This document shows, piece by piece, positions 220 to 63,054 of a DNA stretch of 64,000 nucleotides (the stretch's first letter is position 1; each line of letters opens with the position of its first letter). Source of the stretch: Acidobacteriaceae bacterium (GTDB lineage: Bacteria > Acidobacteriota > Terriglobia > Terriglobales > Acidobacteriaceae); the NCBI GenBank assembly GCA_031296355.1, contig JARLFX010000077.1, positions 62,001-126,000 of the forward strand, read 5' to 3'. A model generated the notes under the pieces. That model ran no database searches. It was not told the DNA's origin and was given only the letters and a program-made list of their open reading frames with translations. A program made the position numbers and the translations under genes.

Positions 220-1833
220 CTACCGTCCGAGCTCTGTCGCAATCTCGCGTGTTGTGCGAGTTAGGCTTTTGCGGGTAGAAGTCCCTTGTTCATTGGTGTG
301 TGCGTGGCCATGGCCAATCGCATTGGCACGAACGCTGGCCTGGGCAGCGGCTGTTCTGAGCATCTGTGCCAATTCATGCTCGCGGCCTGGACGCGCGAGT
401 ATCTGGAAGCTCACGCTATTGTCGTAAGTCGATTTATTCACGGCAAGGTAAAAGACATTTTTAATGTTTTGTCCGCGATTTTCTCCCGGCTGGAGATTTT
501 CGGTTAAATCGTTGACGAGATCCTTGCCGGTTTGTGATGAGTGGGCCTCGAAGACGGATTCCATCAGGCTGGTGACGGTCGCTGCGTCTGTGATAGTGAT
601 GGGATCTGGAGAATTGCGAATGGGGTAGCTGGAATCATTCATGCTCTGAGTCAGGTGATTTGCGAACAACTTGAACTGGCGGGCATGAGACGCGTGTGCT
701 AAGCGTGGATCGCGTGTTTGAGCATCAAGAATGCTCCGGAATTCATCTGAGCCGAGGGGTGTTGTATGTATAAATTCTTCAGAATCGCCGCCATGTGTGA
801 TGAATTGAACGAGCGCGTTCTGTTCAGTAGAGTTCTCACGTGAAGAAGCAAGAAGAGCGGCCTCCGGCAGGTGTTGTTTCGCCTGTAGGATCCCTTCGGC
901 TGAATGGTTGTATTCTGCAAGCGTGTGGGCAATTGCCTGTGTCTGCTCGCGGGAACAGCTGACGGCATACTCCTGGATTATTTCGGCATCGCGTACGGCG
1001 CGGAATATTTCGTTCTTATCTTCCCGGAGAGATTTGAGCCACGAGGCTAGATATCCGGTATGCCGGCCAGGATCATGGGGAACCCCGATTGCATCAGAGA
1101 TGAGCCAACTTGCAATTTCTGCGCGCAGCTCCTCACGGGCGTATAACTCATCGCCAAATACTCCATACTGACGGTTCAACCGTGATTCGTGGCCCGTCCA
1201 ATGGGCCAACTCGTGCATTGCGGTACCGTAGTAGGCTCCCGCGTCATTGAATTGGTCTTTCTGTGGCAGGTGGATTTCATCGCGTAGGGGACTGTAAAAG
1301 GCCCGGTCGGCCTGATCGTGAAGGATGCGCGCACCGGAACCCCTGAGTATCTCTTCGGCTCGATCTTCGGGTTTCCATTCATAGACACGGGCTTTGCGTA
1401 CTAACGGAGGCAGGTTATCGATCTGTTCGGCATTGAAGACAGTGGCGAAGAAGACTCGAGGGCGTTCCAACTCAGCGCGAATCTTGAGAGTCTCGCCATT
1501 CAGTCCAGTAATCGGTTGACCATGTTCATCCGTTTTGACGTGTTCATCATAGAATTTCCAATATTCAATGGGAGTTCCCGTCGAGCCTTTACGAACCTGG
1601 AAGCCGTGTTCGTGAGCCTGTTTATAGGTCATCCAGCGTGGATCGCTGTAACCCTGCAGACCCAACCAGAAAGAGTTGACGCCCCGGTAATTCTTATCGG
1701 TGATTGGGTTATAGGGGCGGCGATCATTATTATTAGCGTCCCAGGGTTTTTGCCACGGAGCAGCTCCTTTTTCCAGCAGATTTATGATTGCGGCTGTAAC
1801 CTTGTCGCGGTGCTCGTCGCTTCTATTCGGCAT
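220..1833 (-). CDS. ardC: ArdC-type antirestriction protein with shared C-terminal tag domain
   Basis: A 537-residue protein. The N-terminal part (about residues 1-130) matches the ArdC ssDNA-binding domain (PWQKPW, NYRGVN, KGSTGTPIEYW). It is followed by a zincin-like metallopeptidase domain with the active-site signature HELAH at about residues 207-211. ArdC proteins shield incoming conjugative DNA from host restriction, and the pSa ArdC is known to enter the recipient with the DNA. The C-terminal 120 residues are not part of ArdC. They contain the domain shared with four other proteins of this element (motif PGENRGQNIKNVF), and the protein ends in ELGR. The ATG at 1833 was chosen because AGAGG lies 8 bases upstream; the frame stays open to 1965. 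The stop is 2 bases before the coupling-protein start. Confidence 0.85.
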   Translation of the reverse strand: MPNRSDEHRDKVTAAIINLLEKGAAPWQKPWDANNNDRRPYNPITDKNYRGVNSFWLGLQGYSDPRWMTYKQAHEHGFQVRKGSTGTPIEYWKFYDEHVKTDEHGQPITGLNGETLKIRAELERPRVFFATVFNAEQIDNLPPLVRKARVYEWKPEDRAEEILRGSGARILHDQADRAFYSPLRDEIHLPQKDQFNDAGAYYGTAMHELAHWTGHESRLNRQYGVFGDELYAREELRAEIASWLISDAIGVPHDPGRHTGYLASWLKSLREDKNEIFRAVRDAEIIQEYAVSCSREQTQAIAHTLAEYNHSAEGILQAKQHLPEAALLASSRENSTEQNALVQFITHGGDSEEFIHTTPLGSDEFRSILDAQTRDPRLAHASHARQFKLFANHLTQSMNDSSYPIRNSPDPITITDAATVTSLMESVFEAHSSQTGKDLVNDLTENLQPGENRGQNIKNVFYLAVNKSTYDNSVSFQILARPGREHELAQMLRTAAAQASVRANAIGHGHAHTNEQGTSTRKSLTRTTREIATELGR

Positions 1834-2050
1834 AGTGGGAAACCTCTTTGTATTCCGCGTAGTTGCCGAGGCTGTCAAGGGCGTCGGTTTCACTGATCGC
1901 TGGTTCAGCCATTGCCCCCATTCTGATTGCATCTTCGCAGCTAAACTCTTGCATGCGTTTGTCACTGTTGTTCATAGGTCACCCTTGTCGCATTTGTGAA
2001 ATGCGACCGGTAATTACCGGCCGCATTCTTGGCTAAAAGAAACAAGACAA

Positions 2051-3088
2051 CTAACGGCCTAGATCATTGCTGTGGTGACTGGGTTCACGTTGCTGAGTTC
2101 TGGGCTCAACCTTGCATCGGGAAAATGCCTGCCGGGCGGCTTTGTCAATTTCCCGCTTAACCTCGGCTTCCTTCCCGGGGAGAGGGTAGAGGGTTGTGCG
2201 CAGATAGCGATTGTCGGCGGAGCGTTCGACGTCAAGGGAGAACATGTTCTTGACGTTTTCGCTCCGCGACTGGCCTGGCTCAACGGAGGCCTGAAGATTT
2301 CTTAGCGCGTCACGGCCAGTCGATTTGCCTTCGTACATCGAAGTGAGGAATGCGTTCGTATGACGGTTGTCAGCGAACGAAACCGCGCCGCCATCTACAT
2401 AGTGATAAGCGCGACGGAGGCCCGAGCCGATGCCGAACTCCTCGGCACAACGATCCTGACGGAACGTAACGTATTTCTCGAAGCCATGTTCTTTAGCCGC
2501 AGCAGGATTCTTTTGCTCAAATTTTTGGAAGTCTGCCAGAGCCTGATTCTTCTGGTCTTCCGTGAGCTTCTCGATCCCGCCGTTCTGCCGTGTCCAGTGC
2601 TTTTCGTTGGGCGCTCCAGATTCGCTCGCGGTTCGCTCTACGTCCTGGTCGGCGGGAGCGGCACCCCTTTCGGCAGCCTTGGCTACGCGTTCTGCAGTAC
2701 GTTCCTGCCTCCAGGCACAGTATTGCTGCACGCTGACATCCTTCGCCCTGACCGGATACTTTGTGGTCCATTTTGCGTAGTCCGCATCACATAGGGCTTT
2801 ATGTTCAGGCGAGAGCGAGGAATATCCGCCGTTTTCATGAGTCCAGTAAGACTTCGCCGATGTGCCCTCCTGCTGGTTTGCGGGAGTTTGCTCTGCGACG
2901 CCGGGTTCCTGGGCAGCGTTTGGTGCCGGCTCCTCTGCTTGTATATCCTGCTGAACTTGCTTGCTGTTGCTTCTACCTTTGCCACGCGCTTTCGTCTTCG
3001 CGGGCACTTGTATGGGGCTGGCAGTGGTGGGTTCCTCTTGATACCTCTCTTCGACGATCGCTGATGTTGCCATAGTCCTGGCATCCAT
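2051..3088 (-). CDS. Unknown protein: two internal WT-NGG repeats plus shared C-terminal tag domain
   Basis: A 345-residue protein I do not recognise from any named family. The first 75 residues are low-complexity, rich in K, E, A and P. Two copies of a roughly 55-residue repeat follow, the first from about residue 80 (YWTHENGGYSSLSPEHK) and the second from about residue 165 (HWTRQNGGIEKLTEDQK). Each ends in a (Q/K)YxxxRQ(D/E)R element. Residues 244-320 are the C-terminal domain shared with the relaxase and the ArdC and DarB-like proteins (PGQSRSENVKNMF), and the tail ends DLGR. A start at 3073 (MATSAIVEE) is also possible, with AGGA close upstream. By company and tail it is probably another protein sent to the recipient; its activity is unknown. 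Confidence 0.75.
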   Translation of the reverse strand: MDARTMATSAIVEERYQEEPTTASPIQVPAKTKARGKGRSNSKQVQQDIQAEEPAPNAAQEPGVAEQTPANQQEGTSAKSYWTHENGGYSSLSPEHKALCDADYAKWTTKYPVRAKDVSVQQYCAWRQERTAERVAKAAERGAAPADQDVERTASESGAPNEKHWTRQNGGIEKLTEDQKNQALADFQKFEQKNPAAAKEHGFEKYVTFRQDRCAEEFGIGSGLRRAYHYVDGGAVSFADNRHTNAFLTSMYEGKSTGRDALRNLQASVEPGQSRSENVKNMFSLDVERSADNRYLRTTLYPLPGKEAEVKREIDKAARQAFSRCKVEPRTQQREPSHHSNDLGR

Positions 3089-3310
3089 TTCTGTGCGCGA
3101 TTCTTGCGCACCGTTAGGGTTGAGGTTTTACTCGCAGACATGCTGCGAGTGCGTGAGACAGCTCGTATACCTTTTGGCCATAGTGGCGGGCCTTTGTTCA
3201 GCGCGTGACTTCTTGCGTACCGAGATGTGGTGTATGCGAACCGAGGTAAGCAGCCGTCTTAGCTCCACGCACCGAAGGTACCACTGTTTCTGCGTATGAA
3301 GACATCGCAG

Positions 3311-3343
3311 ATGTCATAGACGTAATAGACGACTATATGACAT
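3311..3343. promoter_or_regulatory. Candidate operator upstream of the unknown repeat protein, TAATAGACGTA family
   Basis: The core at 3314-3333 (TCATAGACGTAATAGACGAC) aligns almost base for base with three other sites in this window, at 7535, 47628 and 52575. Here the core also sits inside an inverted repeat, ATGTCATA (3311-3318) against TATGACAT (3336-3343). It lies 220-255 bases before the start of the leftward gene at 3088. The 432-base gap between that gene and the next (3089-3520) shows nothing else I can support. Confidence 0.55.
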
Positions 3344-3520
3344 GGTAGATTGGAAATCAAGTGCCATTGGGGATGGAGGCCGCTGGCGCAGGGGCAGGGA
3401 AGCCTGGGGCTGTTCGCCGGGCTTCGCAGAAAGGCGGATAATGTGGGTTTAGGGCGCGAACCGTTGGCCTAGACGTGGAAGCTCAACCGCTCCTAGTACA
3501 GTTCCACGGCTCGCAATTTG

Positions 3521-4141
3521 TTACCTTTTCAGGGACAAACCCCTTTGGCGACCGCGGTCGTGATAGACATGGTGGGGAGTTTTGCTGATTTTCTCGGGTT
3601 TCCCGCTGCCGGCGACACGATAGAGTTGGGACAACTCATGAGTCCTGCCCGGAAGGGGCTCAACGCGGTAGATCAACATCCCGTCATGGTCTACCGTTAT
3701 GCGGATGACAAAGAGGTTCCGAATGGGTTCGGAGCGCTCTTCATCTGGTTTTATGTTGGCGCTGAGGAGCGAAATTTCATCTCTTCCGCGTGGCGATTTC
3801 AGGGCTGCGTCCATCAAACACGCTGCGTGTTCCCGGCTGGGCAGCCGGAGCGCCATGGCTATCCCTGTGTTTTCTGTGTTCTGGGCGGCATCCCTGAAGT
3901 ACTGTCTAGGTTCTTTTTGGTGATACTGGGCAATCCGTATCCAGCAAGTATCGTGTCCGAAGACGCGGCGTAGAACAAAAATCTCAGCATACTTCGCCCC
4001 GTTCGCAATGGCTGCTTTGACTTCCTTGCGAGCAAGCGTTTCGCCCGCCTTTCCACTTGGGATATTCGGAACCGTCACGCCATCGATGACCAGCCGAATG
4101 TCACTGACTCCCACTGATCTACTACTGAGCGGTTTTGCCAT
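3521..4141 (-). CDS. Unknown small protein with shared C-terminal tag domain
   Basis: A 206-residue protein with no recognised family over residues 1-105. That part begins MAKPLSSRSVGVSDIRLVI and contains an alpha/beta-looking stretch around KAAIANGAKYAEIFVLRR. Residues 106-179 are the domain shared with the relaxase, the ArdC and DarB-like proteins and the neighbouring repeat protein (PDEERSEPIRNLF, then PLPGRTHEL). The tail after it is strongly basic and ends SLKR rather than LGR. GGAG lies about 10 bases before the ATG. It is read leftward like its neighbours. If the shared domain is a secretion tag, this would be the smallest cargo carrying it. Confidence 0.75.
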   Translation of the reverse strand: MAKPLSSRSVGVSDIRLVIDGVTVPNIPSGKAGETLARKEVKAAIANGAKYAEIFVLRRVFGHDTCWIRIAQYHQKEPRQYFRDAAQNTENTGIAMALRLPSREHAACLMDAALKSPRGRDEISLLSANIKPDEERSEPIRNLFVIRITVDHDGMLIYRVEPLPGRTHELSQLYRVAGSGKPEKISKTPHHVYHDRGRQRGLSLKR

Positions 4142-4379
4142 AGCTCGGTACTCCGTGGCCGGCTAGCGCCGGTAGCTGTCTAGTATAGCTATAGAGAGTA
4201 CCTATCAGCACATCGATGAAGGTCTACCTCTTCGGTGGGTGGCATAAGCAGCCGCCTATATAGTAATTGCGAGTGTCAAGAAAACTGCGCAATCGCGGTA
4301 ATAGGGAAATACCTTCTTATAGGGATAAAATAAATAAGCAATTGTAGATAACTACGATAGTTAATTAGAGGGCATAAGA

Positions 4380-4667
4380 ATGAGTTTTGAAAACCTTATT
4401 GCAGAGATCGATTCTGAAATTTCCCGCCTGACACAGGCCAGGCAGCTGTTGACCGGAGGTGCGGTAGCAACTGCCAAGCGTGGTCCCGGAAGACCGCCAG
4501 CCGCCGTAGTCGCAGCTAAGCCGAAGAAGAAGCGCAAGATGAGCGTTGCGGGCAAAGCCCGAATCGCTGCTGCACAAAAGGCGCGCTGGGCAAAGGTTGC
4601 GGCTGCCAAAACAGCCAAGCCCGAAGCGAAGGCAGTTAAGAGCACGAAAACCGCCAAAGCAAAGTAA
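4380..4667 (+). CDS. Small basic AT-hook, histone H1-like protein
   Basis: A 95-residue protein made of two parts. The first 25 residues are acidic to neutral and helical (MSFENLIAEIDSEISRLTQ). The rest is a lysine- and alanine-rich tail with an AT-hook core (GPGRPP at about residues 39-44), a KPKKKRKM patch and repeated AK/KAA units resembling histone H1 tails. It most likely binds DNA in the minor groove, as a nucleoid-type or silencing protein. AGAGGG stands 8 bases before the ATG in an AT-rich leader. It is the only rightward gene among leftward transfer genes, is monocistronic, and is followed by a strong hairpin terminator. Confidence 0.75.
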   Translation: MSFENLIAEIDSEISRLTQARQLLTGGAVATAKRGPGRPPAAVVAAKPKKKRKMSVAGKARIAAAQKARWAKVAAAKTAKPEAKAVKSTKTAKAK

Positions 4668-4684
4668 AACGTTGTGAGTTATAT

Positions 4685-4716
4685 AAAGAGGCTGGAGAAA
4701 GCTCTCCAGCCTCTTT
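4685..4716 (+). terminator. Hairpin terminator between convergent genes
   Basis: A perfect 14-bp inverted repeat, AAAGAGGCTGGAGA (4685-4698) and TCTCCAGCCTCTTT (4703-4716), with a 4-base loop. Because the stem ends carry A and T runs on both sides, it can terminate the AT-hook gene on the plus strand and the relaxase operon on the minus strand. Confidence 0.8.
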
Positions 4717-4823
4717 ACGCGTTCTTTCTGGGCTTATATCGGGGCACATATACTCAGCCCAGTATTGGGATGCGTGCCGCATGCGAATGTTACTAGCGGC
4801 TACAAGAGCAACGCTTCCGGTAC

Positions 4824-7022
4824 TTATTCAAGACCCTTGTCTTTTTCGTGGATTCTCTCTCCCCTTTGGTTCCGCTCTCTTTCCTGTCCAACCTGACCCT
4901 TGGCCGGGCGCCGCACTGTAGCGCTCTTGCTCATCTGTTCTGCCGCTGCGCGGATCATCTCCGCCAACTCAGCTCCTTTCCCCGCCGTAGGCTTGACCAT
5001 ATAGATCGCTGTACCATCTCCGGCGCGGACTACCTCAAGATGAAAAATGTTTTTGATATTCGTGGTGCGGCTTTCACTAGGCTGCATATTGCCTTGTAGA
5101 TCGTTAACCAGACCACGTCCCCGCATAAGTCCATAGATGCCGCCCATCAGAACATAGGCCGCATCCCGATCTGCCAGCCGGAAAGGAGTATCCGGCTGGT
5201 TCGCAATCCGGTCATGAAGTTCCATAAGCTGCTTCGCCATCACGCCGAACCTGTCCACCTTCATCTGCTCGACAAAGACGATCTGCTGCATTCTGGTGTC
5301 GGTGAACCGAATATAGACACCATTTCGGGCGGCAGCACGGGCGATTTGCTCTTTCCACTGCTCAGTACCATCCGCACGGATGACGATCCCGTATTTCTTC
5401 ACCGCCATTTCGAGACCGAGAACGATGGCAGCCTCCTCGGTGGACAGAACGGAGATCGTCTTTCCGTGATCGACGAGTGCCATGGTTCCTCGGATCGTGT
5501 AATGCACATCGCCGCTACGCCGGTTGATCGTCCAGCGCGTCGCGGCAATGACCTTGGCTATCTCCTCATTTCGCTGGAGTTCGCGCAGACGGTCGTTGGT
5601 GAGTTCTGTCCACTCGGATTCATCCGACGGTCCGCCAGCGGATAGATACACTGCATCCTGTTCGGACTTGATTGTCTTATCCAGCGCATTGATATTGCGT
5701 TGATCCTGATACCGCCAGCCGCGAAGCTGTGCGGCGGCGGCTTTATCACCAGCCTCGGCTTTCCCCATGACCCACTGCTGATAGGTAAGACCCTGAAGCT
5801 TCAGCCGCTCCCGCATGGCTTCGACTTTGAGGAGCCGTTGCTGAACGACATGTTCGGCAACCGCCCGGGAGAGCTGTGCTCGCTTCTCCGGCCAGGGGAT
5901 CTCTTGTGCGCGTATCTGCTTCTTGGTCAACTGAAGCTGATCGGACAGTTCTGCCCGCCGCTTGCGAACATATCCCGTATACGCCTTTTGCTGTTCCCGG
6001 CAGCCAGCGCGGTAAGCGGCAAATGCCTGCTTGAGCGCCTGACGTGCCTGTTCGCGCTCCTCGCGGCGCTGTGTCCGTTTTTCAGGATCGCGCGCTGGGT
6101 GCTGCTCATACTTCGCTGACGGTTTGCCTGTTGGCCGATCTGCAGCATTCGCCTCCCGCCAGGGTCCCAGCTTTCTCTCCGTCTCCGCGCGGTTCAGCTT
6201 CCCTGCGAAGGCACGGCGAAAGACGTCGGATACCTTCACCCGGATATCTGAGCCGATGGCCTGAACAGTGTACCCACCCTGTTCTCCCCGATGCATTTCG
6301 AGACCATACCGATACAGCATGGTGTGAACCTCTGACCATGAGACGGTGTGCCGGGCAAGGAGCATCTGGAGGTCCGCGGCCGGTTTTCCTTTGGCGTACG
6401 CCTGAAGACTTTCCACGTCGCGGTAATATTCCAATTTTGCGGCTTTTCCATCCGCTTGTGCTCCATGGCGACTCAGGGCGCGCATCTCCTCCCGTGTATT
6501 CTTGACCGCCATCCCGCGTTCCTTATCCCAGCGATAATGCCCCACCGCTTCCGTCCAGCCTTGTTCATGCTCCAGCTCCCGCATCGCCTGGTCGAGCGTG
6601 AACATATCCCGGTAGGGAGTGTGAGCCCGATACGTCTCTGGATGGACCTTGTTGACCATGATGTGAATGTGGAAGTGCGCTTTGTCATCATGAGCGACGA
6701 TCAGGTACTGGTGCTCGGCGAAGCCGAGGTCTTGTAGTGTTCGTAGCGCCGCTGCCTTCCATTGGTCATGCGTGGGACGTTCAGCGGGATGCCAGGCTAT
6801 CTGATAGTGGTACACCGGGTCCTTGCAGAGCGGATTCATGGCTGCGACACCAAGCATTTCCCCATGCAGGGTTTCAAACGAGATCAGGTTGTCCGAGAGG
6901 ACCATCTCGCCACGAAGTACCTCCTGTCCGGTGTCAGGATCGCGTTCCTTGGTCAGGTAGTCCTTGAGTTTCTTGAAGTTTGTTCCTTTGTCGCGTCTGC
7001 CGTTGGAAATGGGTGCCAGCAT
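4824..7022 (-). CDS. MOBP-type conjugative relaxase with shared C-terminal tag domain
   Basis: A 732-residue relaxase that nicks oriT and stays bound to the 5' end of the transferred strand. The three-histidine metal site is HFHIH at residues 116-120, followed by MVNKVHPET. Tyr22 in LKDYLTKE is the likely nucleophile. The central part is charged and helical (about residues 260-480). A region around residues 495-590 (VHYTIRG..ALVDHGK..GTEQWKEQI) resembles the LPD7 domain found in RP4 TraI-like relaxases. Residues 621-696 are the shared C-terminal domain (PSESRTTNIKNIF, then GKGAEL), followed by a 36-residue basic tail. It starts directly after the MobC stop, so the two are translated together. 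The gene order matches RP4 traJ-traI. Confidence 0.9.
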   Translation of the reverse strand: MLAPISNGRRDKGTNFKKLKDYLTKERDPDTGQEVLRGEMVLSDNLISFETLHGEMLGVAAMNPLCKDPVYHYQIAWHPAERPTHDQWKAAALRTLQDLGFAEHQYLIVAHDDKAHFHIHIMVNKVHPETYRAHTPYRDMFTLDQAMRELEHEQGWTEAVGHYRWDKERGMAVKNTREEMRALSRHGAQADGKAAKLEYYRDVESLQAYAKGKPAADLQMLLARHTVSWSEVHTMLYRYGLEMHRGEQGGYTVQAIGSDIRVKVSDVFRRAFAGKLNRAETERKLGPWREANAADRPTGKPSAKYEQHPARDPEKRTQRREEREQARQALKQAFAAYRAGCREQQKAYTGYVRKRRAELSDQLQLTKKQIRAQEIPWPEKRAQLSRAVAEHVVQQRLLKVEAMRERLKLQGLTYQQWVMGKAEAGDKAAAAQLRGWRYQDQRNINALDKTIKSEQDAVYLSAGGPSDESEWTELTNDRLRELQRNEEIAKVIAATRWTINRRSGDVHYTIRGTMALVDHGKTISVLSTEEAAIVLGLEMAVKKYGIVIRADGTEQWKEQIARAAARNGVYIRFTDTRMQQIVFVEQMKVDRFGVMAKQLMELHDRIANQPDTPFRLADRDAAYVLMGGIYGLMRGRGLVNDLQGNMQPSESRTTNIKNIFHLEVVRAGDGTAIYMVKPTAGKGAELAEMIRAAAEQMSKSATVRRPAKGQVGQERERNQRGERIHEKDKGLE

Positions 7023-7352
7023 CTAGGCCTCCGGCTCCGATGATTGAAGCCGCTGAATCTCATCACGGATCTCATGGAGAACACGATTGAGCTGATGTCT
7101 GGTTTCCGGGAGCCCGGGCTCATCCTTGATCTGTTGCAGGCAATACTTCTGAAGTCCGCCAAGGCGTGCCAATTCTCCCATCGCCTTGAGGTTGATCTTG
7201 GAGTGGATACGCTTTTGAAGCGCGCACCGTCGCATGTATTCGCTCACCGTTAGGCCCGCGTAGTTGGCAAGGGTCTCAATCCTATCCAACTCCTCAGGAA
7301 GCAAACGGAGTGTATAGCGCTTCCGGTGTTCGACGATCCTGGGCCTGCTCAT
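7023..7352 (-). CDS. MobC/TraJ-like oriT-binding ribbon-helix-helix protein
   Basis: A 109-residue relaxosome accessory protein. A ribbon-helix-helix domain occupies the first half (KRYTLRLLPEELDRIE, then GLTVSEYMRRCAL). The C-terminal half (LARLGGLQKYCLQQI, then RHQLNRVLHEIRDEI) matches the MobC helix that works with MOBP relaxases. The ATG at 7352 is preferred because GAGGA stands 9 bases upstream. The frame stays open to 7679, but that part runs through the oriT region and is not protein-like. Its stop abuts the relaxase start, and the promoter must lie in the oriT gap. Confidence 0.85.
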   Translation of the reverse strand: MSRPRIVEHRKRYTLRLLPEELDRIETLANYAGLTVSEYMRRCALQKRIHSKINLKAMGELARLGGLQKYCLQQIKDEPGLPETRHQLNRVLHEIRDEIQRLQSSEPEA

Positions 7353-7403
7353 CGTCGACATTCCTCTGGGGTCTCGGGGCGGCGCCCTGAGCAAGTTGCG
7401 CAA

Positions 7404-7465
7404 GGTCCACACGAGTAGCCGAAGGCGGATTGGGTGGACCTGGTGGCAGGATGAAAACGACCGCA
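7404..7465. other. Candidate origin of transfer (oriT) with RP4-type nic site
   Basis: The gap between the leftward mobC-relaxase pair and the rightward traK-L-M genes is where RP4 keeps oriT. The minus strand of 7446-7452 reads ATCCTGC, the nic core of RP4-type MOBP relaxases, placing the cut between 7447 and 7446. Next to it is an inverted repeat, GGTCCAC (7404-7410) and GTGGACC (7434-7440), a likely MobC/TraJ or TraK site. The nic position is inferred from family consensus. Confidence 0.6.
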
Positions 7466-7534
7466 GGAAGGTTTTGTCATGACAGCGCCTGACTTGCCCT
7501 CCGCCGTAATGAATTGGTTGTGGTGTTGCATATC

Positions 7535-7554
7535 TAATAGACGTAGAATACATC
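7535..7554. promoter_or_regulatory. Candidate operator in the divergent mobC / traK gap, TAATAGACGTA family
   Basis: TAATAGACGTAGAATACATC matches the elements at 3314, 47628 and 52575. It lies about 180 bases before the mobC start and about 95 bases before the first traK-like start, in an AT-rich stretch, so it could control both directions. Confidence 0.55.
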
Positions 7555-7646
7555 AATAAGATGTGGTACACATATTTACGTGAACGCCACACAGAAACCG
7601 GCGGGGACGCTCGACAGAAGACGATGTGAATAGGGAGAACAACTCG

Positions 7647-8030
7647 ATGAACAGTGGACGCGCAGGAGAAATACGTCAAGAAACTGTTGAAGCAATCAGA
7701 GTGCGGCTCAGGAAGTTGTGCGAAATACAGGTGAAGCGTGAAGTCACACTGCAGAACACCGTTGGTTTGCTATCGAGAGAAATCAAGAGGTTGTTGAGAC
7801 GCGGCTTCACCATGAAGGGAATTGCAGAGCAGTTCAATCGGGGAGGAATACCGCTTGCTGCAGGACGTTACGGGCCTATAGATTGCGGCACGCATCGAAG
7901 CGCGGCAGCGCTGCTGTATGAGGGAGACAAAGTACGCATAGAGGCGCGGCGCCGGCGCAGTCAGTGCGCGGCAAAAAGTGCACTCAAGTATCTCGTGAGG
8001 AGTAATACGCCATGGCCAGGAAGCAAGTGA
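7647..8030 (+). CDS. TraK-like small DNA-binding protein, probably degenerate copy
   Basis: A 127-residue protein whose first 65 residues align with the next gene: KLCEIQVKRE against KLCERQPKRK, and the helix-turn-helix-like stretch RRGFTMKGIAEQFNRGGIPLAAG against a matching stretch there. After that the match is lost. Where the neighbour has GTLRSYLSRS this copy reads GRYGPIDCGT, as expected if an old frameshift replaced the end of the recognition region. The start at 7647 has AGGGAG upstream. It overlaps the next gene by 19 bases. By position (oriT then traK) and size it corresponds to RP4 traK, the oriT-wrapping protein. Confidence 0.55.
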   Translation: MNSGRAGEIRQETVEAIRVRLRKLCEIQVKREVTLQNTVGLLSREIKRLLRRGFTMKGIAEQFNRGGIPLAAGRYGPIDCGTHRSAAALLYEGDKVRIEARRRRSQCAAKSALKYLVRSNTPWPGSK

Positions 8031-41754: not shown

Positions 41755-44700
41755 CTAGCGGCCCATATCCTTGGCCTTCTCATGGCCTGGATGTGCCTGT
41801 ATACGACGCCGCGCGGCGGGCTGTCTTTGAGCGGCATTCTTAAGGAGGTCGGATACCGCAGACGCCTTGCCGGGGAAGGGGGCAATTGTGTAGGTCAAGC
41901 GGTCTGCTTGCGCGCAGGATACGGTGAAGGCGAGGAGGTTCTTTACGTTCGGTTCCTTGCGAACATCCCCCGGCCGCATTTTCTCGCTGAGGGTCTTTAC
42001 CAGCAACTTGCCGCGCGGCTCCTGAAAAATAGAGTCCATAAGACGTTCTGCATCGCCCTGTTCGGTGAGGGCCACAGTGTCTTTGCCGCCGCCGATTTCC
42101 TTGGCTGCGGCAAGAAGCCTTTTTGTATGCGGGTGTACCTGGGGTTCGTTGCCCGTCTCTTCGCCTTCTTCTTCGGCTTGTACATCGCCTAGGTCTTCGG
42201 ACTCTTTGACGTTCTTCATTAATTCGGTCTGGACTTCCTCCAGGCGACGTTCGTACGCGGCTAATTTATCAGCGTATGGGCTCTTCTTTTCAAGCTCGCC
42301 CTGGAGTTTCGCAATGAGCTGTTCGTTTTCCTCAAGCCGTCGCTGTGTGTCCATGATGCCGCGGCCAAGCTCACGGCTGCGTGCGAGAATCGAGGCCAAG
42401 AGTGATTGCGAGGTCGTTATGCCGCTGCCGTCGCCGCGCGGGGCTTCATGCCATTCGCCGGCGAACTGGTATTTTACGACGGGAATGCGGCGAAAGAGAT
42501 CGCCATCACACGCCATCTTTTCGCTGAGTGCGACTGGAATATCTACTCCGTTCACTTGCAGGTTCGTTTTGTCGTTCAGCAGGGGATGTGTCTTAAGATA
42601 ATCGTTGGCATTTTTGAGTTTGGTGAATTCAGTCCCATTGAATTTAAGCTTCATGCTCAAAAGCTTGCCTTCCGCATCGCGCTGTTCGTTCTGCTCGAAG
42701 AGTTTAAGGGTGTGTGTCATCTTGGGAAGAAGTGCCTGGAGATAGGCGCGGCGCATCTCCGCATGGTCCAGTTCCTGGCGATTGTGGTGGTGGGTCAGTT
42801 TATGGGAACGGTCCAGCAAGGAAATCTGCTGGAGTTCATGTTCCAGCTTGATCTTTTCCATCGCCAAGGGGTTGCCGGTGGCCTGCGCCTTGGCGAGAGC
42901 AAATATCTGGGGATTGAGGCGAACATCCCCGGCTACATCCTCAATGCGCCGTCCAAGGCGATTGCCTGAGCGGAATTGCGTGAGGAAGGTCTGCTTGCGT
43001 TCCAGTAACTGGGCGCGCTGCAGGTCATGTGCTTTGGGGGAGTTTACGTCGCGCGGCTCCGAGATGACGCGATATATTTCAACCTCACCGAACGTGTTGC
43101 CATTGCGAACAATGCGGCCCTCGCGCTGTTCCACCTGGTCCGGGCGTTGAGGGAGATCCATGTGAATCTCGGCTTTAAGGCGTGTCTGGACGTTTACACC
43201 GATACCAAACTTTTCGGTGGTGCCGAGAGCGACGCGGACACGGCCAGCGCACATCGCTTGCTGCAGTCCATAGAATGCCTCCCGGTTGTCATAATCGTGA
43301 ACGATAGCGATTTGTGCAGCTGGGACGCCTTGATGAACGAGCTTTTCCTTGATATCGGCAAAGATGTTGAATCGACCGTCCGATGTAGCGTAACGGTCGG
43401 CGAATAGGAGGACCGTGCCGCGCTGTTCTACAGTGCGATCCAATACATTTTTGATGATTTTGACGACAGCATTCGCTTTACTGTCCGGGTGGTCCTTGGC
43501 TGCCGGATCGTAAAATCGTGCGTCGAGGGAAATATCGCGCGCATCGCTATCGAGTTTTAACCAGTTGTCTTCTGTTGGGTCCGGATGATCGGGATCGCCC
43601 ATGGGCAACATAAGCCGTTCGCCGCGTTCGACGATCTCGCGCAGCAGGGGTTCCTGGGCAGGTGTGACCTTAACCAGAACATCAGTGCGTTGCGGATGTG
43701 GAACTTTGAGGTAGCCTGCTTTAACGGCTTCATCCTGAGTCATGACATCGGCAAACTGCGACCACAGCAGTTGCAACTCGGGAACATTCACAAACGATGC
43801 AAGTGCGGTCTTTGGCCGAATGGTCATGCCGTCCGTGGCGTACTCCATGCGGGTAACAGATTCGGCGAAATTAGCGGCCCAGTCATCAAAGTTGCGAATG
43901 CCCGCCTTCTCAAGCAGGTCGGGGGCTATATAGCGGTTCATGATGTAGCTTTCGCCGAGTGTGTTGGTAATAGAGGTGCCGGTGGCAAACACGACGCCAC
44001 GCCCGTTGTGGGTATCGAACATGTATTCGATCTTGGCGAGGATATTTTGTGCCCGCTGGGAGCGTCTGGTGCTGAGACCCGCGACCTGATTCATCTTCGT
44101 GACAAGAGCAAGGGCCTTATATTTGTGCGCCTCATCGACAAAAAGCATATCTACGCCCAGGTCGTCGAAGTAGATGGTGTTATCTTTACGTCCGCCCGAT
44201 AGCTCTTTCAGGCGTTCCTGATACTTCTGCCTAGCACTCTCTATCTGGCGAAGGCTGCGTTTCTCAGCTTTGCTGTCAGGGCTCTCATGGCCTTCGAGCA
44301 GATCGGTCAGCTCTGCAATTTGCCGTTGGATGGTGAGCGCTTCGCGCTCCGGGGAGATCGGCAGGATATCGAATTGGGATTGCGGGATAATCGCCGCGTC
44401 CCATTCGTTGGTTGCAATGCGGGCGAAGAGACGCTGCCTGTTTCTGGCGCTCTGAAAGTCTCTGTCGGTAACGGCGAGGACATTTGCGGCGGGGTAGGCT
44501 TTCTTAAAATCTTCCCGCCATTGTGGGACCATGTTGTTGGGGACCACATACATATTCTTGCGGGAGAGTCCGGTACGGCGGCATTCCATACCGGCGCATA
44601 CCATCGTGAGCGTTTTGCCGGAGCCGACAAAATGATCGGTGAGGTCTCGGCCTTCCTGCATGATGCGCCAGACGGCTGCGCCCTGATAGTGGCGCGGTGT

Positions 44701-49341: not shown

Positions 49342-49425
49342 AAAGCATTTGCTCCTTTCGAGCGGTTGAGGGTGAATAGAAACGAAGCGGAGACGCACTG
49401 GCGGTATCCGCTCCAAGAGAGCGAA

Positions 49426-52574: not shown

Positions 52575-52594
52575 CAATAGACATAGTAGATGTA
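52575..52594. promoter_or_regulatory. Candidate operator upstream of trbB, TAATAGACGTA family
   Basis: CAATAGACATAGTAGATGTA matches the sites at 3314, 7535 and 47628. It is 70-90 bases before the trbB start at 52665, at the head of the nine-gene secretion operon, in an AT-rich stretch. Confidence 0.58.
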
Positions 52595-52664
52595 CATAAC
52601 AGCAATCTTGCGCTATGATGAACGTCAAGCTCCACACCGCGCAGCGGTGCCGAAGGTTAGGGCG

Positions 52665-53630
52665 ATGATCAAGACACAAAAACCGGCAGCAGAAGAAGTA
52701 GCTTCGCGATCAGAGGATAAGCTCCGCCGTGAGTTGGGATCGGTGATGGATGAATTGGAGAAGGAGGGAACAGAGGACATCCTTCTGAATCCGGACGGCA
52801 TTCTCTGGGCGAAGCGCCGTGGCCAGCCATTCGTAAAACTGGGAGCTTTTCCCGCCGAGCGTGCGATGGCGGCCATGGCGAGCATTGCGCATTATCGCGG
52901 CACGGAAATCAACCATGACAATCCGATCCTGGAGACCGAGCTGCCGTTCAATGGCAGCCGCTTTGAAGGCCTGGTGCCGCCGATTGTCAAGCGGCCATGC
53001 TTTGCGATTCGGCCCCGCCCCAAGACCGTTTTCACGCTTGAAGAATACGTGCAATCCGGAGTATTGACGGAGGTGCACGCAGGTCTTCTTCGGGATGCGA
53101 TACGCGACCGCAAGAATGTTCTGGTAGTGGGATCTACAGGGTCGGGCAAGACGACATTGGTAAATGCGGTGCTCGACTCCATAGCCAGGATTACCCCGGA
53201 TCACAGAGTTTTATTGATCGAGGACACGCCGGAGCTGCAATGCAATGTGGATAATTTTCTCCCCCTATTGGCGGCGGGAAATATTTCGATGAGCGATTGT
53301 CTCAAAGCGTGTATGCGCCTGACGCCGGACCGGATCATCGTGGGCGAAGTTCGCGGTGGAGAGGCGCTGACGCTGCTCAAGTCCTGGAACACCGGACATC
53401 CGGGCGGGGTAACGACAGTTCATGCGAATGATGCGGTTTCAGGTTTGCTGCGGCTGGAAAGTTTAGCGGCGGAAGCGACGGCCGCGCCGCAACAGAAGTT
53501 CATTGGCGAAGTGATCAATATCGTCGTTTTTATCTCAAAAGACAGGAGTGTGAAAGCTGGCCGCAAGGTCAGAGAGGTTTGCACCGTTACCGGATACAAC
53601 GGCCATACCTATGAAGTTGAGTACCTGTAG
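52665..53630 (+). CDS. trbB: TrbB, VirB11-type secretion ATPase
   Basis: A 321-residue hexameric ATPase that powers pilus assembly and DNA transfer. Walker A is GSTGSGKTT (about residues 154-162), followed by LIEDTPELQC, the Walker B region MRLTPDRIIVGEVRGGE and the His box TGHPGGVTTVHAN. ATG 52665 is preferred over the upstream open frame from 52590. It is first in the trb operon and 55 bases before trbC. No membrane segment is present, as expected for a peripheral inner-membrane protein. Confidence 0.93.
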   Translation: MIKTQKPAAEEVASRSEDKLRRELGSVMDELEKEGTEDILLNPDGILWAKRRGQPFVKLGAFPAERAMAAMASIAHYRGTEINHDNPILETELPFNGSRFEGLVPPIVKRPCFAIRPRPKTVFTLEEYVQSGVLTEVHAGLLRDAIRDRKNVLVVGSTGSGKTTLVNAVLDSIARITPDHRVLLIEDTPELQCNVDNFLPLLAAGNISMSDCLKACMRLTPDRIIVGEVRGGEALTLLKSWNTGHPGGVTTVHANDAVSGLLRLESLAAEATAAPQQKFIGEVINIVVFISKDRSVKAGRKVREVCTVTGYNGHTYEVEYL

Positions 53631-53685
53631 GTATGGCTTTTGTGTTGTGACCACGTGTTGTTCCAACCGAACGAGGAGTGAACGT

Positions 53686-54093
53686 ATGAAGCAGAATCGT
53701 GTGGTTTGTTCATTGATGAAGCACAAACAATTGGTACTTGTGCCGGTTATGCTGGCCATTTCAGCAACGCCTTCTTTCGCCTCTACGGGCGGAGGCCTTC
53801 CGTGGGAGGCCCCACTGACGACGGTAAAGAACTCATTGACAGGTCCGGTTGCCCTGGCCGTCAGTACATGCGCCCTGTTCGCCTGCGGGGCGGTTCTGGT
53901 GTTCGGCGGTGAGATGACCGAATTCGTTAAGCGCGCCTTGTACGCGGTGATTGCTATTTCGTTCATTGTCGGCGGCGCGAGTTTTATCACTACTGTTTTC
54001 GGTTTCAGCGGAGCCACCATTGCGCTTCTCCATATCGTGCAACCGCTGGCGGTGCACCTTGCACACGCATCAACCGCAGGAAGAGTGAGCTAA
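53686..54093 (+). CDS. trbC: TrbC, VirB2-type pilin precursor
   Basis: A 135-residue pilin precursor. A long signal peptide (LVLVPVMLAISATPSFAS) is followed by two hydrophobic helices (GPVALAVSTCALFACGAVLV and ALYAVIAISFIVGGASFI), the VirB2/TrbC pattern. GAGGAG stands before the ATG. The stop abuts the trbD start. In RP4 the mature pilin is cyclised; no maturation peptidase (TraF) was found in this window. Confidence 0.88.
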   Translation: MKQNRVVCSLMKHKQLVLVPVMLAISATPSFASTGGGLPWEAPLTTVKNSLTGPVALAVSTCALFACGAVLVFGGEMTEFVKRALYAVIAISFIVGGASFITTVFGFSGATIALLHIVQPLAVHLAHASTAGRVS

Positions 54094-54405
54094 ATGGATC
54101 GACCGCGTGAGGCCGTTTTTCACCAGTCGATCAACCGGCCAAACCTGTTGATGGGTGGCGACCGGGAATTAGTTCTGTTCGCCGCCCTCATCGCGGGAAT
54201 ATTGGCCTTCTCGTTGATGACCTGGTGGGGGGTACTGATCGCCATGGTTCTGTGGCCGAGCGCGATCTGGTCGTTATCCCGCATGGCGAAGGAAGATCCG
54301 CTGATGCGTCAGGTTTATGTGCGTCACATCCACTACGCGATGTATTACCCGGCGAAATCACAGACGCGGCTCGGTGGCGTTTCAACACCCGCGAGTTGGA
54401 GGTAG
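54094..54405 (+). CDS. trbD: TrbD, VirB3-type inner-membrane protein
   Basis: A 103-residue protein of the VirB3/TrbD family. It starts with the typical MDRPREAVFHQSINRPNLLM, then two membrane segments around residues 28-60 (LVLFAALIAGILAFSLM, GVLIAMVLWPSAI) and the family end pattern MAKEDPLMRQVYVRHI. It follows trbC without a gap and precedes trbE by 4 bases. Confidence 0.9.
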   Translation: MDRPREAVFHQSINRPNLLMGGDRELVLFAALIAGILAFSLMTWWGVLIAMVLWPSAIWSLSRMAKEDPLMRQVYVRHIHYAMYYPAKSQTRLGGVSTPASWR

Positions 54406-54409
54406 GCAA

Positions 54410-56914
54410 ATGCAGATTACGGAAAATCGTCGTTACGCACGTGGCTTGCCGGATCTTCTGCTCTACGCCTCGTTGGTGGAGGATGGCGTATTACTGTTGC
54501 AGGACGGCGCCCTGATGGCGTCCTGGTCGTTCACCGGGCCAGATCTGGCGTCAGCGACCTTTGATGAAATGGCCGTGCTGACCGCACGGCTCAACAGCAT
54601 ATTGCGCCTCGGTTCGGGCTGGATGGTACATTGCGACACCATCCGCACAGAAAGTCCAGAGTATCCCAGGAGCGGCGCTTTCCCGGACCCTATAACGCGA
54701 TTGATTGATGAAGAGCGCCGCGCCCAGTTTCTCCGGGAGGGAAGTCACTTCGAAAGCGAATATTTCTTGACGCTCACGTACCTTCCTCCGGCGCAGACAG
54801 AGGAGAAGCTGCGGGGGTTCATGTATGAGAACGGAGACGAAGTATCGCGGCCGGTCGCGCAACGGGCGCTGGAGTATTTTGGCACACGCATTGCCTCGTT
54901 TCATGAAGTCTTCAGTTCGCAGTTCAAAGTGAAGCGATTAAAGGCGCGGAAGGCCGTGGACAACTACGGTTTTACCGTGGTCTATGACGAACTTCTGCGG
55001 TACGTGCGGCGATGTGTGACGGGTGAGGATTTCCCGTTCGTGCAGCCGGAGATACCCGTGTTCTTACACGATCTGATTGGCTGCCGGGATTTCAGCGGCG
55101 GGGTCTCCCCCAAGATTGGGGATGCAAATATCCGTATCGTTGCGGTCGACGGATTTCCCCATACGAGTTATCCGGGGGTAATGGCTGCGCTCGATACATT
55201 GCCGTTTGAGTACCGGTGGAATACACGCGCCATTTTGTTGGATGCCGAACATGCGAAAGGGATGATCGACAAGCACTTGAAGAAATGGCGCGCAAAGACG
55301 CGCGGTTTCATGGACCAATTGATGGGGCGAGCACCGAAGAACATTGATTTGTTCGCAGTGGAGATGGTGAATGACGCGAACAGCGCTCTTGGAGAGGCGT
55401 CAGCGGGGGATGTGCAGTTTGCGCTCTATAGCGCGAACATTCTCGTTCTCGATAAGAATGCGGATGCTGCTGACGGAAAAGCCGGTCAGGTTGCAAAGAC
55501 ACTGCAAAACCTCGGTTTCGCAGCTCGTATCGAGACGATCAATGCGGTGGAAGCGTGGCGGGGGAGTCTTCCTGGAGACGGATACCGGAATGTCCGTCGC
55601 ATCCTACTGAATACGATCAATCTGGCTGATTGCCTGCCGATTGCGGCAGTGTGGGCGGGAGCGCGTGTCAATCCGTCTCCCCTGATGCCAGCAGACAGCC
55701 CGGCTTTGATGTATGCCACCAGCATTGGCTCGACCGTATTCCGCGTGAACCTGCATGTACAGGACATTGCCCACACCCTAGTGCTTGGGCCATCTGGCGC
55801 AGGCAAATCCACATTACTGGCCATGCTGGCCGCACAGTATTTCCGTTACCCGAAGGCCCAGGTCTTTTGTTTCGACAAAGGATACTCGATGTTTGTGTTG
55901 AATCAGGCGGCTGGTGGAGATTTCTACGATCTGGGCGGCCCGAACGCACCGTTGAACTTCTGCCCGCTTGGCGAACTGGATGACCCTTCCGATGTGGCCT
56001 GGGCGGTGGACTATGTGGAGAGTCTGTGTCTGTTAGCTGGGCAGCCGATTAGTCCGCAGCAGCGTAACGAGATTCTAGCCGGGGTGCAGATGTTGTCTGA
56101 GTCGCCGGAACGGACCCTGACGGAGTTGGTCATCAATATTCAGGACAATGACATTAAAGACGCGTTGAAGCACTACACCCTGTCCGGCTCGCTCGGCGGG
56201 TTGCTCGAAGCCAAAAGGGACGAAAACGCGCTTGGTTCGTCGTGCTTTATGACATTCGAGATGGAGCACCTGATGAACTACGGCGACAAGGATAAAGCCG
56301 TAGTCGCGGTGCTTCTATATTTGTTCCGGCAGATCGAAAAGCGGCTGGATGGATCGCCATCGCTGATTGTGCTTGATGAAGCCTGGGTATACCTGCAGAA
56401 CGAGATGTTTAAGGACAAGATCCGGGACTGGCTGAAGACATTTCGGAAGAAGAATGCCGCTGTTGTTCTGGCCACGCAGAGCATCTCGGATGTCATCAAC
56501 TCGCCCATCCGCGATGTAATTCTGGAGTCCTGTCCGACGAAGATCCTGCTTCCCAATGCAGAGGCAGGAAACGATAACTCTCGCCAGTTTTACATGCAGC
56601 TCGGCCTGAACCCGCGTGAGATTGCCATGCTTCAGGCTGCAATACCGAAGCGTCAGTACTACTTCTTCTCTCCGGTCGGGCGGCGGCTTGTCTCGCTGGG
56701 TCTTGGCCCGGTAGTGCTTGCTTTTGTCGGCGTGAGCGATACCGAGTCGCGGCAGGAGGTGCAGCGGCTGATAGCACGGAATCCGCGGACGTGGCAGGAA
56801 CTGTGGCTTCGCCAGCGAGGCCTAAACTCCTGGGCCGACTACTACGCGACGCAATGTGTACCACGTGGCGAAGTGGGGCAAGAGCTGGTACATGCAACCG
56901 GAGGTGTTCGATGA
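54410..56914 (+). CDS. trbE: TrbE, VirB4-type secretion ATPase
   Basis: An 834-residue ATPase, the largest channel component. The N-terminal CagE/VirB4 domain begins ARGLPDLLLYASLVEDGVLL. Walker A is GPSGAGKSTLL (about residues 461-471), Walker B lies in SLIVLDEAWVYL, and TRK-type helicase-like motif follows in VVLATQSISDVINS. The start at 54410 has GGAGG upstream. It overlaps trbJ by four bases (ATGA). Confidence 0.94.
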   Translation: MQITENRRYARGLPDLLLYASLVEDGVLLLQDGALMASWSFTGPDLASATFDEMAVLTARLNSILRLGSGWMVHCDTIRTESPEYPRSGAFPDPITRLIDEERRAQFLREGSHFESEYFLTLTYLPPAQTEEKLRGFMYENGDEVSRPVAQRALEYFGTRIASFHEVFSSQFKVKRLKARKAVDNYGFTVVYDELLRYVRRCVTGEDFPFVQPEIPVFLHDLIGCRDFSGGVSPKIGDANIRIVAVDGFPHTSYPGVMAALDTLPFEYRWNTRAILLDAEHAKGMIDKHLKKWRAKTRGFMDQLMGRAPKNIDLFAVEMVNDANSALGEASAGDVQFALYSANILVLDKNADAADGKAGQVAKTLQNLGFAARIETINAVEAWRGSLPGDGYRNVRRILLNTINLADCLPIAAVWAGARVNPSPLMPADSPALMYATSIGSTVFRVNLHVQDIAHTLVLGPSGAGKSTLLAMLAAQYFRYPKAQVFCFDKGYSMFVLNQAAGGDFYDLGGPNAPLNFCPLGELDDPSDVAWAVDYVESLCLLAGQPISPQQRNEILAGVQMLSESPERTLTELVINIQDNDIKDALKHYTLSGSLGGLLEAKRDENALGSSCFMTFEMEHLMNYGDKDKAVVAVLLYLFRQIEKRLDGSPSLIVLDEAWVYLQNEMFKDKIRDWLKTFRKKNAAVVLATQSISDVINSPIRDVILESCPTKILLPNAEAGNDNSRQFYMQLGLNPREIAMLQAAIPKRQYYFFSPVGRRLVSLGLGPVVLAFVGVSDTESRQEVQRLIARNPRTWQELWLRQRGLNSWADYYATQCVPRGEVGQELVHATGGVR

Positions 56915-57690
56915 GATATGTGAAACAAGTACTCTGCGTTTCGGTTGTATTCACCTTGGCGATGTCCGAATCGATTCAGCCTGCGCAAGCGGGCGGAATC
57001 AGCGGCGTTGCGACCGAGTGGACACAAATTCTCAACAACATTCAGTTGACGGAAGAGAACTCGACTACGTTGCAGCAGTTGGAGAATCAATTTCAGCAAC
57101 TCCAGCACGAGTTGACCATGATTCAACATGCGGAACTGCAAACGCAATCCATGACGAATATTCAACAGAACCCGATATTCGGTTCAGCCATGCAAGACAT
57201 GATGCAGCTGTCAAACATTGTGCAACAAGGCAACGCGTTGGCGTATTCCATGGCAAACCTTGATCAGGAGTTCAGCAATCGGTATCGCGGATTCGGCTAT
57301 ACGACGTCAACCAATTATCCGCTGCAGTACAAGAAGTGGCTGCAAACGTCGCTCGATACTTCACATGGGGCACTGGACGCGCTCAACATTCAAGGCTCCC
57401 AACTTAATAATGACACTCAGCTCTTAACCCGCTTGGAACAGCAATCGCAGTCGTCAACCGGGCTGCTTCAGGCTATTCAAACGGCTAACCAGCTCGCTGC
57501 GCAGGAAATTGTCGAGTTGCAAAAGCTGCGGCAACTGATGATGGTCGATATCCAGTCGAAGCAGGTTTTCCAGGCACAGCAACTGAGCGATAGCATGGCA
57601 ACCTCGGATATGAACCAGATGTTTTTCAGCTTGCCGCCAAGCTCTAACAGTGATTCACGCACGTTCGCGCCGGTCGCATCGGACTATTAG
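56911..57690 (+). CDS. trbJ: TrbJ, VirB5-type pilus-tip protein
   Basis: A 259-residue periplasmic protein. A signal peptide (VLCVSVVFTLAMSESIQPAQA) is followed by a glutamine-rich coiled coil (TLQQLENQFQQLQHELTMIQ, and later LLTRLEQQSQSSTGLLQAI), the pattern of TrbJ/VirB5 proteins at pilus tips. It follows trbE by overlap. The Ti-type order has trbK between trbJ and trbL; no such gene is present here. Confidence 0.85.
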   Translation: MRYVKQVLCVSVVFTLAMSESIQPAQAGGISGVATEWTQILNNIQLTEENSTTLQQLENQFQQLQHELTMIQHAELQTQSMTNIQQNPIFGSAMQDMMQLSNIVQQGNALAYSMANLDQEFSNRYRGFGYTTSTNYPLQYKKWLQTSLDTSHGALDALNIQGSQLNNDTQLLTRLEQQSQSSTGLLQAIQTANQLAAQEIVELQKLRQLMMVDIQSKQVFQAQQLSDSMATSDMNQMFFSLPPSSNSDSRTFAPVASDY

Positions 57691-57713
57691 CAGGGGTGTG
57701 GAGACTTAGCTTG

Positions 57714-59189: not shown

Positions 59190-59195
59190 TCGACT

Positions 59196-59897: not shown

Positions 59898-59911
59898 GAG
59901 AGGGGTTGGGA

Positions 59912-62889: not shown

Positions 62890-63054
62890 GACTTTCGAGT
62901 TTCCCCGATTCGCGTGAAAGGCTCTTCATAGCGTTTATTCTGCAATCCTTCCCGGCCAGATCGATAGCCAGATTGGCACTAGAGCTTGGTATACGAATGC
63001 GCGCAAGCAGTACCACTTGGCTTTTGTCATTCATCCGGTCAACAATGGCTGTAT

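Follow-up and report, generated by a model that had tools for sequence, protein, structure and literature searches.

How conjugation machines choose their protein passengers is poorly understood, and the locus described here, a 64,000-nucleotide stretch of an Acidobacteriaceae genome (contig JARLFX010000077.1, positions 62,001 to 126,000; hereafter the window), raises this question. Why do five proteins encoded on one element, a relaxase of the TraI/MobA(P) family, an ArdC-type and a DarB-like antirestriction protein, and two proteins of no known family, U206 and U345, end in the same way? The original prediction for this DNA had suggested a tag that routes antirestriction proteins to the recipient. 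Profile searches confirm that the five proteins share a homologous C-terminal domain some 85 residues long, and we consider it fairly probable, by analogy with known secretion signals, that this domain is a relaxase-derived docking tag which would bring each of them to the coupling protein or to the relaxosome, to be delivered together by the Trb-type type IV secretion system (T4SS).

Five proteins with one homologous C-terminal domain

Leave-one-out profiles, each built from four copies, recover the fifth among the 1269 stop-to-stop frames of the window with 51 to 72 bits (E 9.1e-15 to 2.9e-21), compared with a best score of 8.7 bits in 20 residue-shuffled sets. A sixth copy is not present in the window, where the other frames listed at E values up to 5 score at most 4.5 bits, and none of the products of the Trb-type channel genes carries the domain in the profile search of the window frames. 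All five copies are C-terminal in their open reading frames (ORFs) and have the positions given in the original prediction, and the core motif proposed at that time is consistent with the columns that are invariant in the five-row alignment, i.e., G25, L32, P38, R42, N48, G71, and A83 in the numbering of the relaxase segment; when two relatives from outside the window are added (seven rows), G25, L32, N48, and G71 are left. Pairwise identities among the window copies amount to 23-36 percent, and the copies therefore do not stem from recent duplications. In the seven domain rows Pfam gives only two single-row matches (E 0.06-0.07), NCBIfam and PHROGs have no match over the shared region, and among the PADLOC families shown there is none either. 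Judged by the lack of a match over the region in Pfam, NCBIfam, and PHROGs, the domain family is new, in agreement with the original prediction, which had no named domain to match it.

With the relaxase copy as query, AlphaFold predicts a beta-alpha-alpha-beta-beta-beta-alpha fold with three core strands (pLDDT 87), for which no clear match was obtained in the PDB. The alanine-rich helix noticed earlier can now be assigned to the last helix of this predicted fold. The expectation that all five copies adopt the same fold holds in part, as a confident fold comes from the one copy that was folded and the other four rest on the shared alignment.

The domain is followed in each protein by a basic tail with a net charge of +3 to +6. 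ArdC, U345, DarB, and U206, four of the five domain proteins, have a terminal Arg, which is found in 5 of 35 other likely genes of the window. The earlier description of mostly basic tails, three of the five ending in (L/M)GR, is thereby borne out; of the other two, the fourth Arg-ended protein has KR at its end and the relaxase has GLE.

The N-terminal parts had been called unrelated to each other, and they do belong to different families (ArdcN with a zincin-like peptidase; Relaxase with TraI_middle and LPD7; DarB-like), with two proteins having no family at all. The relaxase matches NF041893 of NCBIfam with 308.3 bits (cut-off 250), which identifies it as a TraI/MobA(P) member, and within its 732 residues the TraI model stops at residue 545 and LPD7 at residue 581. 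In ArdC, the Pfam matches are ArdcN (1e-33) and the zincin-like peptidase MPTase-PolyVal (2.7e-42), and the PHROGs family match stops at residue 342 of 581. The DarB-like protein matches phrog_10089 with 1329 bits (E 0) over residues 73-1815 of 1940; PADLOC lists 34 families for it, and among the 25 shown none extends into the shared domain. Homologs of DarB at E < 1e-100 number three in 300 Acidobacteriaceae genomes, with matches reaching residue 1605 at most. Hence, in every characterised host (relaxase, DarB, and ArdC), the shared domain lies beyond the family core, a position which we count in favor of a tag. Members of the ArdC and DarB-like families are described as antirestriction factors (PMC5512222) and would be of immediate use in a recipient. 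In U345, two repeats (W-x5-GG...FRQ/YVQ; residues 73-148 and 157-215) have a homologous counterpart in a linker module of the MobQ relaxase of an Acidisoma plasmid (L010:8631-10754; 37 and 34 percent identity), and because these repeats recur in a relaxase linker and the shared domain is present as well, U345 looks as if it had been assembled from relaxase parts.

Relatives and likely source of the domain

Protein searches with the relaxase region yielded a near-identical relaxase fragment (P0002) and P0003 as the only carriers of the domain among 113 candidates, those with the U345 region yielded only U345 itself (P0004) and P0005 among 47, and those with the DarB region yielded no relative among 426; these searches rely on shared exact 5-residue words, so that remote relatives may escape. 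P0003 is the closest full-length relaxase (76 percent identical) and is encoded in an Acidobacteriaceae metagenome-assembled genome (MAG); proteobacterial plasmid relaxases reach up to 44 percent identity to the window relaxase, so that Acidobacteriaceae are the likely host family of the element. Within the domain, the window relaxase and P0003 are 60 percent identical, as are U345 and P0005, and all other pairs of the seven share 17-36 percent. Because the orthologous copies are so much more alike than the other pairs, the simplest history would be that the relaxase domain was copied to other genes before the window lineage split from the P0003/P0005 relatives. Two plasmid lineages have the system in common, which again is counted for a tag.

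In a plasmid collection the relaxase, DarB, and U206 copies had no match and U345 was matched only via its N-terminal repeats, the ArdC copy not being queried; the three copies searched for in viral contigs, those of the relaxase, U206, and DarB, had no relative there. In the 40 plasmid records listed among 4500 that match the relaxase, the alignments end at residue 611 or earlier, and the common form of TraI therefore does not include the domain.

A pattern scan of an 84,980-species collection with two relaxases as queries identified seven loci, all in Acidobacteria MAGs. The relaxases of L001, L002, L006, and L007 run past LPD7 into a segment colinear with the shared domain, and comparison of this distant segment with the domain by hhalign gave a score of 25.1 (E 5e-4, probability 32 percent), the best of 60 column-shuffled decoys scoring 19.2. 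Folded from a separate four-row alignment, the distant segment is predicted to consist of E3-6, H9-19, H22-34, E41-44, E48-54, E60-66, and H68-93 (E, strand; H, helix), i.e., it has the order of elements of the window domain at nearly the same positions (best pLDDT 80; five models 56-80). Five relaxase ORFs have the distant version in the six genomes from which the seven loci come, and elsewhere in them there is one chance-level match (E 0.09). Since no other kind of protein in those genomes was found with it above chance level, the relaxase is the likely source of the domain. The seven-row profile finds nothing in these same six genomes, so its blanks are weak evidence; its only matches in 398 genomes of the family, L008 and L009, are attributed to chance, as they lie inside unrelated-looking frames and are not C-terminal. 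A nine-row profile that includes the distant version found only G002, itself a source of the profile, in 399 genomes of the class and 250 of the family.

The tails were followed in these relatives as well. The U345 homolog P0005 ends in NDVGR, and 10 of 13 related relaxases, counted as distinct ORFs with a match reaching residue 575 and ending in a stop, end in Gly-Arg (L001-L007, L016, L022, and L023; L021, L025, and L029 do not). It is noteworthy that the relaxases of L003, L004, L005, and L023 have no C-terminal domain and nonetheless end in ERGGR; the Gly-Arg end is therefore kept independently of the globular domain.

KfrB in other plasmids and the proposed role of the shared C-terminus

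A comparable arrangement was encountered in 19 plasmid records that had been picked by a match to the window relaxase, DarB, ArdC, or U345 and are thus not a random sample. KfrB (PF18790) occurs in 8 of the 19 but in none of 14 control genomes; it is carried by 31 proteins, in each case within 28 residues of the C-terminus, and some of these have extra internal copies. In Methylovorus pMsip01, Paraburkholderia pl3WSM5005, and Cupriavidus pRK1-3, KfrB ends 11, 8, and 5 proteins, respectively, and in all three the relaxase and the VirD4/TraG coupling protein are among them; in these records (NC_012970.1, NZ_CP017564.2, and NZ_CP062807.1; L037/L038, L055/L056, and L059/L063) the coupling protein thus has its C-terminal domain in common with the relaxase and with many cargo-like proteins. 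Within type IV systems, it is VirD4 that recruits the substrates (PMC5916273). Other proteins ending in KfrB are DarB-like (pMsip01 and pl3WSM5005), AbiEii-type nucleotidyltransferases (pl3WSM5005 and pRK1-3), and an annotated cytosine methylase (pMsip01). A KfrB-ended relaxase ORF is present in 4 of the 19 records, three of which also have the KfrB-ended coupling protein; the PLAsvaD relaxase ends in KfrB, and in pHLHK22 it is the ORF next downstream of the relaxase ORF, one with LPD7, that does so. KfrB is present on three of the six coupling-protein ORFs that phmmer detected across the 14 plasmids analysed. In PLSDB (72,556 plasmids), the coupling-protein KfrB query matches six records and the relaxase KfrB query ten, on the relaxase in seven, with all six coupling-protein records included; four of those six are from Burkholderia and the query missed pMsip01, so that the count is a lower bound obtained from related plasmids.

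A terminal Arg is present in 24 of the 31 KfrB proteins, against a background of 233/1767, 67/647, and 32/271 for ORFs of at least 150, 250, and 400 residues, although P values for this comparison overstate its significance, the proteins being related. The three KfrB coupling proteins do not end in Arg. Pfam gives no KfrB match for the window domain, and hhalign of the window domain against 14 KfrB C-termini aligned three columns (E 0.45). As far as sequence comparison goes, two unrelated domains are found in equivalent positions on proteins of like kinds. A description of KfrB as common to relaxase, coupling protein, and cargo was not found in searches of an open-licence library.

How might such a C-terminus work? 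In the donor, the domain would dock on the TraG/VirD4 coupling protein or on a partner bound to it, with the basic tail forming part of the signal. The relaxase would enter the recipient covalently bound to the DNA, and ArdC, DarB, U206, and U345 would follow as passengers and act there ahead of its restriction systems. For the passenger copies, a fusion of the relaxase C-terminus with other genes is the probable origin, in line with what has been reported for BID and the VbhT toxin. The original prediction, with delivery as the role of the domain, is supported in part, namely by a new family with few close relatives, a confidently predicted fold, the basic tails, and the KfrB parallel. The example of ArdC from plasmid pSa, in contrast, does not speak for it. 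This protein is reported to be transferred in full length (PMC5512222), and as the domain queries, among which the ArdC copy was not used, remained empty in the plasmid collection, ArdC can probably travel without the shared domain.

Several further observations weigh against a docking tag. The close family is tiny, comprising outside the window only P0002, P0003, and P0005. The window relaxase, although an obligate substrate, lacks the terminal Arg, and a TraG/VirD4 coupling protein is absent among the scanned genes of the window. The relaxases of L003, L004, L005, and L023 end shortly after LPD7, and because they have no domain it is, by comparison of these sequences, dispensable for some relaxases. 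As to the parallel, 11 of the 19 plasmids have no KfrB; where it is present, the ArdC of pMsip01 is without it, as are the relaxase and the coupling protein of a Diaphorobacter plasmid, and one KfrB protein of pMsip01 is a TrfB-like DNA-binding protein which need not be delivered. For the plasmids W02, W07, W08, W11, W13, and W14, whose relaxase position is known, no pair involving the relaxase was among the shared C-termini listed. Moreover, KfrB and the window domain show no homology, and therefore the parallel is one of placement only. Finally, the kfrA-kfrB-kfrC operon of IncP plasmids has been tied to plasmid maintenance and partition (PMC7783346), and a role in assembly therefore fits as well.

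Such a role is the strongest of the alternatives, although we regard it as rather unlikely: the domain would be a module for relaxosome assembly or homotypic oligomerization, bringing ArdC, DarB, U206, and U345 together in the donor, on the relaxase or on the strand being transferred (or tethering them to plasmid DNA or to partition complexes), and would not be a signal read by the channel. That the KfrB coupling protein has the same domain as the cargo suggests like-with-like pairing, the TrfB-like protein with KfrB would be accommodated, and the window domain cores are nearly neutral (net charge -3 to +1), as one might expect for a protein-protein surface. However, an assembly module alone leaves the recurrence of basic tails and terminal Arg residues in two unrelated domain families unexplained. 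That the domain is a KH-like module for binding single-stranded DNA or a DNA end, by which the proteins would travel on the transferred strand or protect it, seems improbable to us. Slightly less probable still is a gene-fusion relic or a processing tag without a delivery role, for example a substrate of the ArdC zincin peptidase. The window ArdC does have a zincin-like peptidase, and such peptidases have been proposed to process polyvalent proteins (PMC5512222), but the motif is kept at 23-36 percent identity and orthologous copies exist in two lineages, which points to selection.

If the domain is a docking tag, the set of proteins that a plasmid delivers could be read from its sequence via the domain common to relaxase and cargo, and U206 and U345 would be marked as likely delivered factors. 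The KfrB observation extends this idea to a domain already in Pfam and makes the coupling protein a possible receptor. Tentatively, and with less confidence than for the window domain itself, one might imagine a system of address labels: each plasmid lineage would have its own relaxase-born C-terminal coupling domain, matched on the coupling protein at least for KfrB and copied onto antirestriction proteins, methylases, and nucleotidyltransferase toxins that travel with the DNA, and a terminal Arg would usually mark the substrates and not the receptor. As part of the same tentative scheme, KfrB would serve proteobacterial MOBP plasmids, the window domain Acidobacteriaceae, and BID rhizobial plasmids.

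The element and its comparison with known systems

The set of NikA and TraI, the ParB gene, and the Trb-type channel genes in the window make it very probable that the element is a conjugative plasmid, which is probably self-transmissible and belongs to soil bacteria. NikA, the TraI relaxase, U206, U345, and ArdC form a leftward set at the left end of the window (Table 1).

Table 1. Features of the window that relate to the shared domain and to conjugation.
Feature	Position	Strand	Remarks
ArdC-type antirestriction protein, 581 aa	220..1965	-	ArdcN, MPTase-PolyVal, shared domain; Pfam, phrog_7245
ArdC tail	223..345	-	net +3, end ELGR
ArdC copy of shared domain	346..600	-	profile search
U345, no known family	2051..3088	-	two W-x5-GG repeats, shared domain; no family over cut-off (Pfam, NCBIfam, PHROGs)
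U345 tail	2054..2134	-	net +3, end NDLGR
U345 copy of shared domain	2135..2389	-	profile search
U206, no known family	3521..4141	-	shared domain; no family over cut-off (Pfam, NCBIfam, PHROGs)
U206 tail	3524..3604	-	net +6, end SLKR
U206 copy of shared domain	3605..3859	-	profile search
TraI/MobA(P)-family relaxase, 732 aa	4824..7022	-	Relaxase, TraI_middle, LPD7, then shared C-terminal domain; Pfam, NCBIfam NF041893
Relaxase basic C-terminal tail	4827..4937	-	net +4, end KDKGLE
Relaxase copy of shared domain, 85 residues	4938..5192	-	profile search; fold predicted
NikA-like relaxosome protein	7023..7679	-	Pfam PF21983; upstream of relaxase; without shared domain
DarB-like antirestriction protein, 1940 aa	41755..47577	-	methylase-helicase, shared domain; phrog_10089 residues 73-1815; Pfam
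DarB-like protein tail	41758..41826	-	net +5, end KDMGR
DarB copy of shared domain	41827..42081	-	profile search
ParB gene	47746-49416
Trb-type mating channel genes: T2SSE ATPase/TrbB, TrbC, VirB3, TrbE, TrbL, VirB8, CagX/TrbG, TrbI	52590..62454	+	Pfam

Between the relaxase and U206, on the opposite strand, lies an AT-hook-like ORF of 95 residues (4380-4667, +) with abundant lysine and alanine (GRPP ... KKKRK). A Fic-domain protein (10070-11623, +) has a match to PDC-S24, a candidate defence family of PADLOC (3.5e-174), and is without the shared C-terminal domain. The two tra regions are separated by a cargo block (14809-41622) with two two-component systems, a kumamolisin-like protease, MacB-type and RND-type efflux genes, and two secretin-domain proteins, one of which has a cohesin match. 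After the Trb genes, a HEPN-domain ORF (62986-63999, +) is open at the end of the window.

Among known C-terminal modules, TraI-like_C (PF22287), the C-terminus of IncP-type TraI, has the same position and, with 85 residues in the IncP-like TraI of an Acidovorax plasmid, about the same length. Profile comparison gave no match to the window domain and no second C-terminal copy was found in the Acidovorax plasmid, and a resemblance of IncP TraI-like_C to KfrB, noted by eye, was not supported by profile comparison. The XVIPCD of Xanthomonas-type antibacterial T4SS effectors is C-terminal, is recognised by VirD4, and occurs on otherwise unrelated effectors, which serve a killing T4SS and not a relaxase-bearing plasmid; by this description, the likeness to the window domain consists in the C-terminal placement on unrelated proteins. 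LPD domains of polyvalent proteins, such as LPD7, which are spread over relaxases and injected proteins, are accessory like the window domain, and ArdC-N has been suggested to couple proteins to delivery as a kind of 'header' (PMC5512222). In contrast to these, the window domain is C-terminal and outside Pfam, and LPD7 is a separate domain upstream of it in the relaxase which Pfam does not find on the other four proteins.

KfrB of MOBP/Trb plasmids is, like the window domain, C-terminal on relaxase, DarB-like, ArdC, and no-family proteins, with tails that usually end in Arg, and placement on the relaxase and a DarB-like protein of one plasmid is found in the window and in two KfrB plasmids. 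KfrB differs in its length of about 54 residues and in having no profile match to the window domain; it is also present on coupling proteins, of which there is none among the scanned genes of the window.

The BID domain is a helical bundle. Like the window domain, BID (Bartonella/rhizobial relaxases; VbhT, Beps) is C-terminal on the relaxase and on other proteins of one element, and just this placement on relaxase and non-relaxase proteins is what the window displays. The window domain, known here from sequence alone, differs in being predicted to be alpha+beta, in having no family match (the best E value for the seven rows in Pfam is 0.06, the presence of a BID model in that library being unchecked), and in its occurrence on antirestriction proteins. 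According to the literature, T4SS signals are for the most part very short and notorious for being hard to predict (PMC5675462). BID is the core of a type IV secretion signal common to relaxases and the translocated toxin VbhT, whose delivery into recipients has been reported (PMC5675462). A T4SS tag shared with the relaxase is therefore a known kind of system, and what is new in the window is the domain family.

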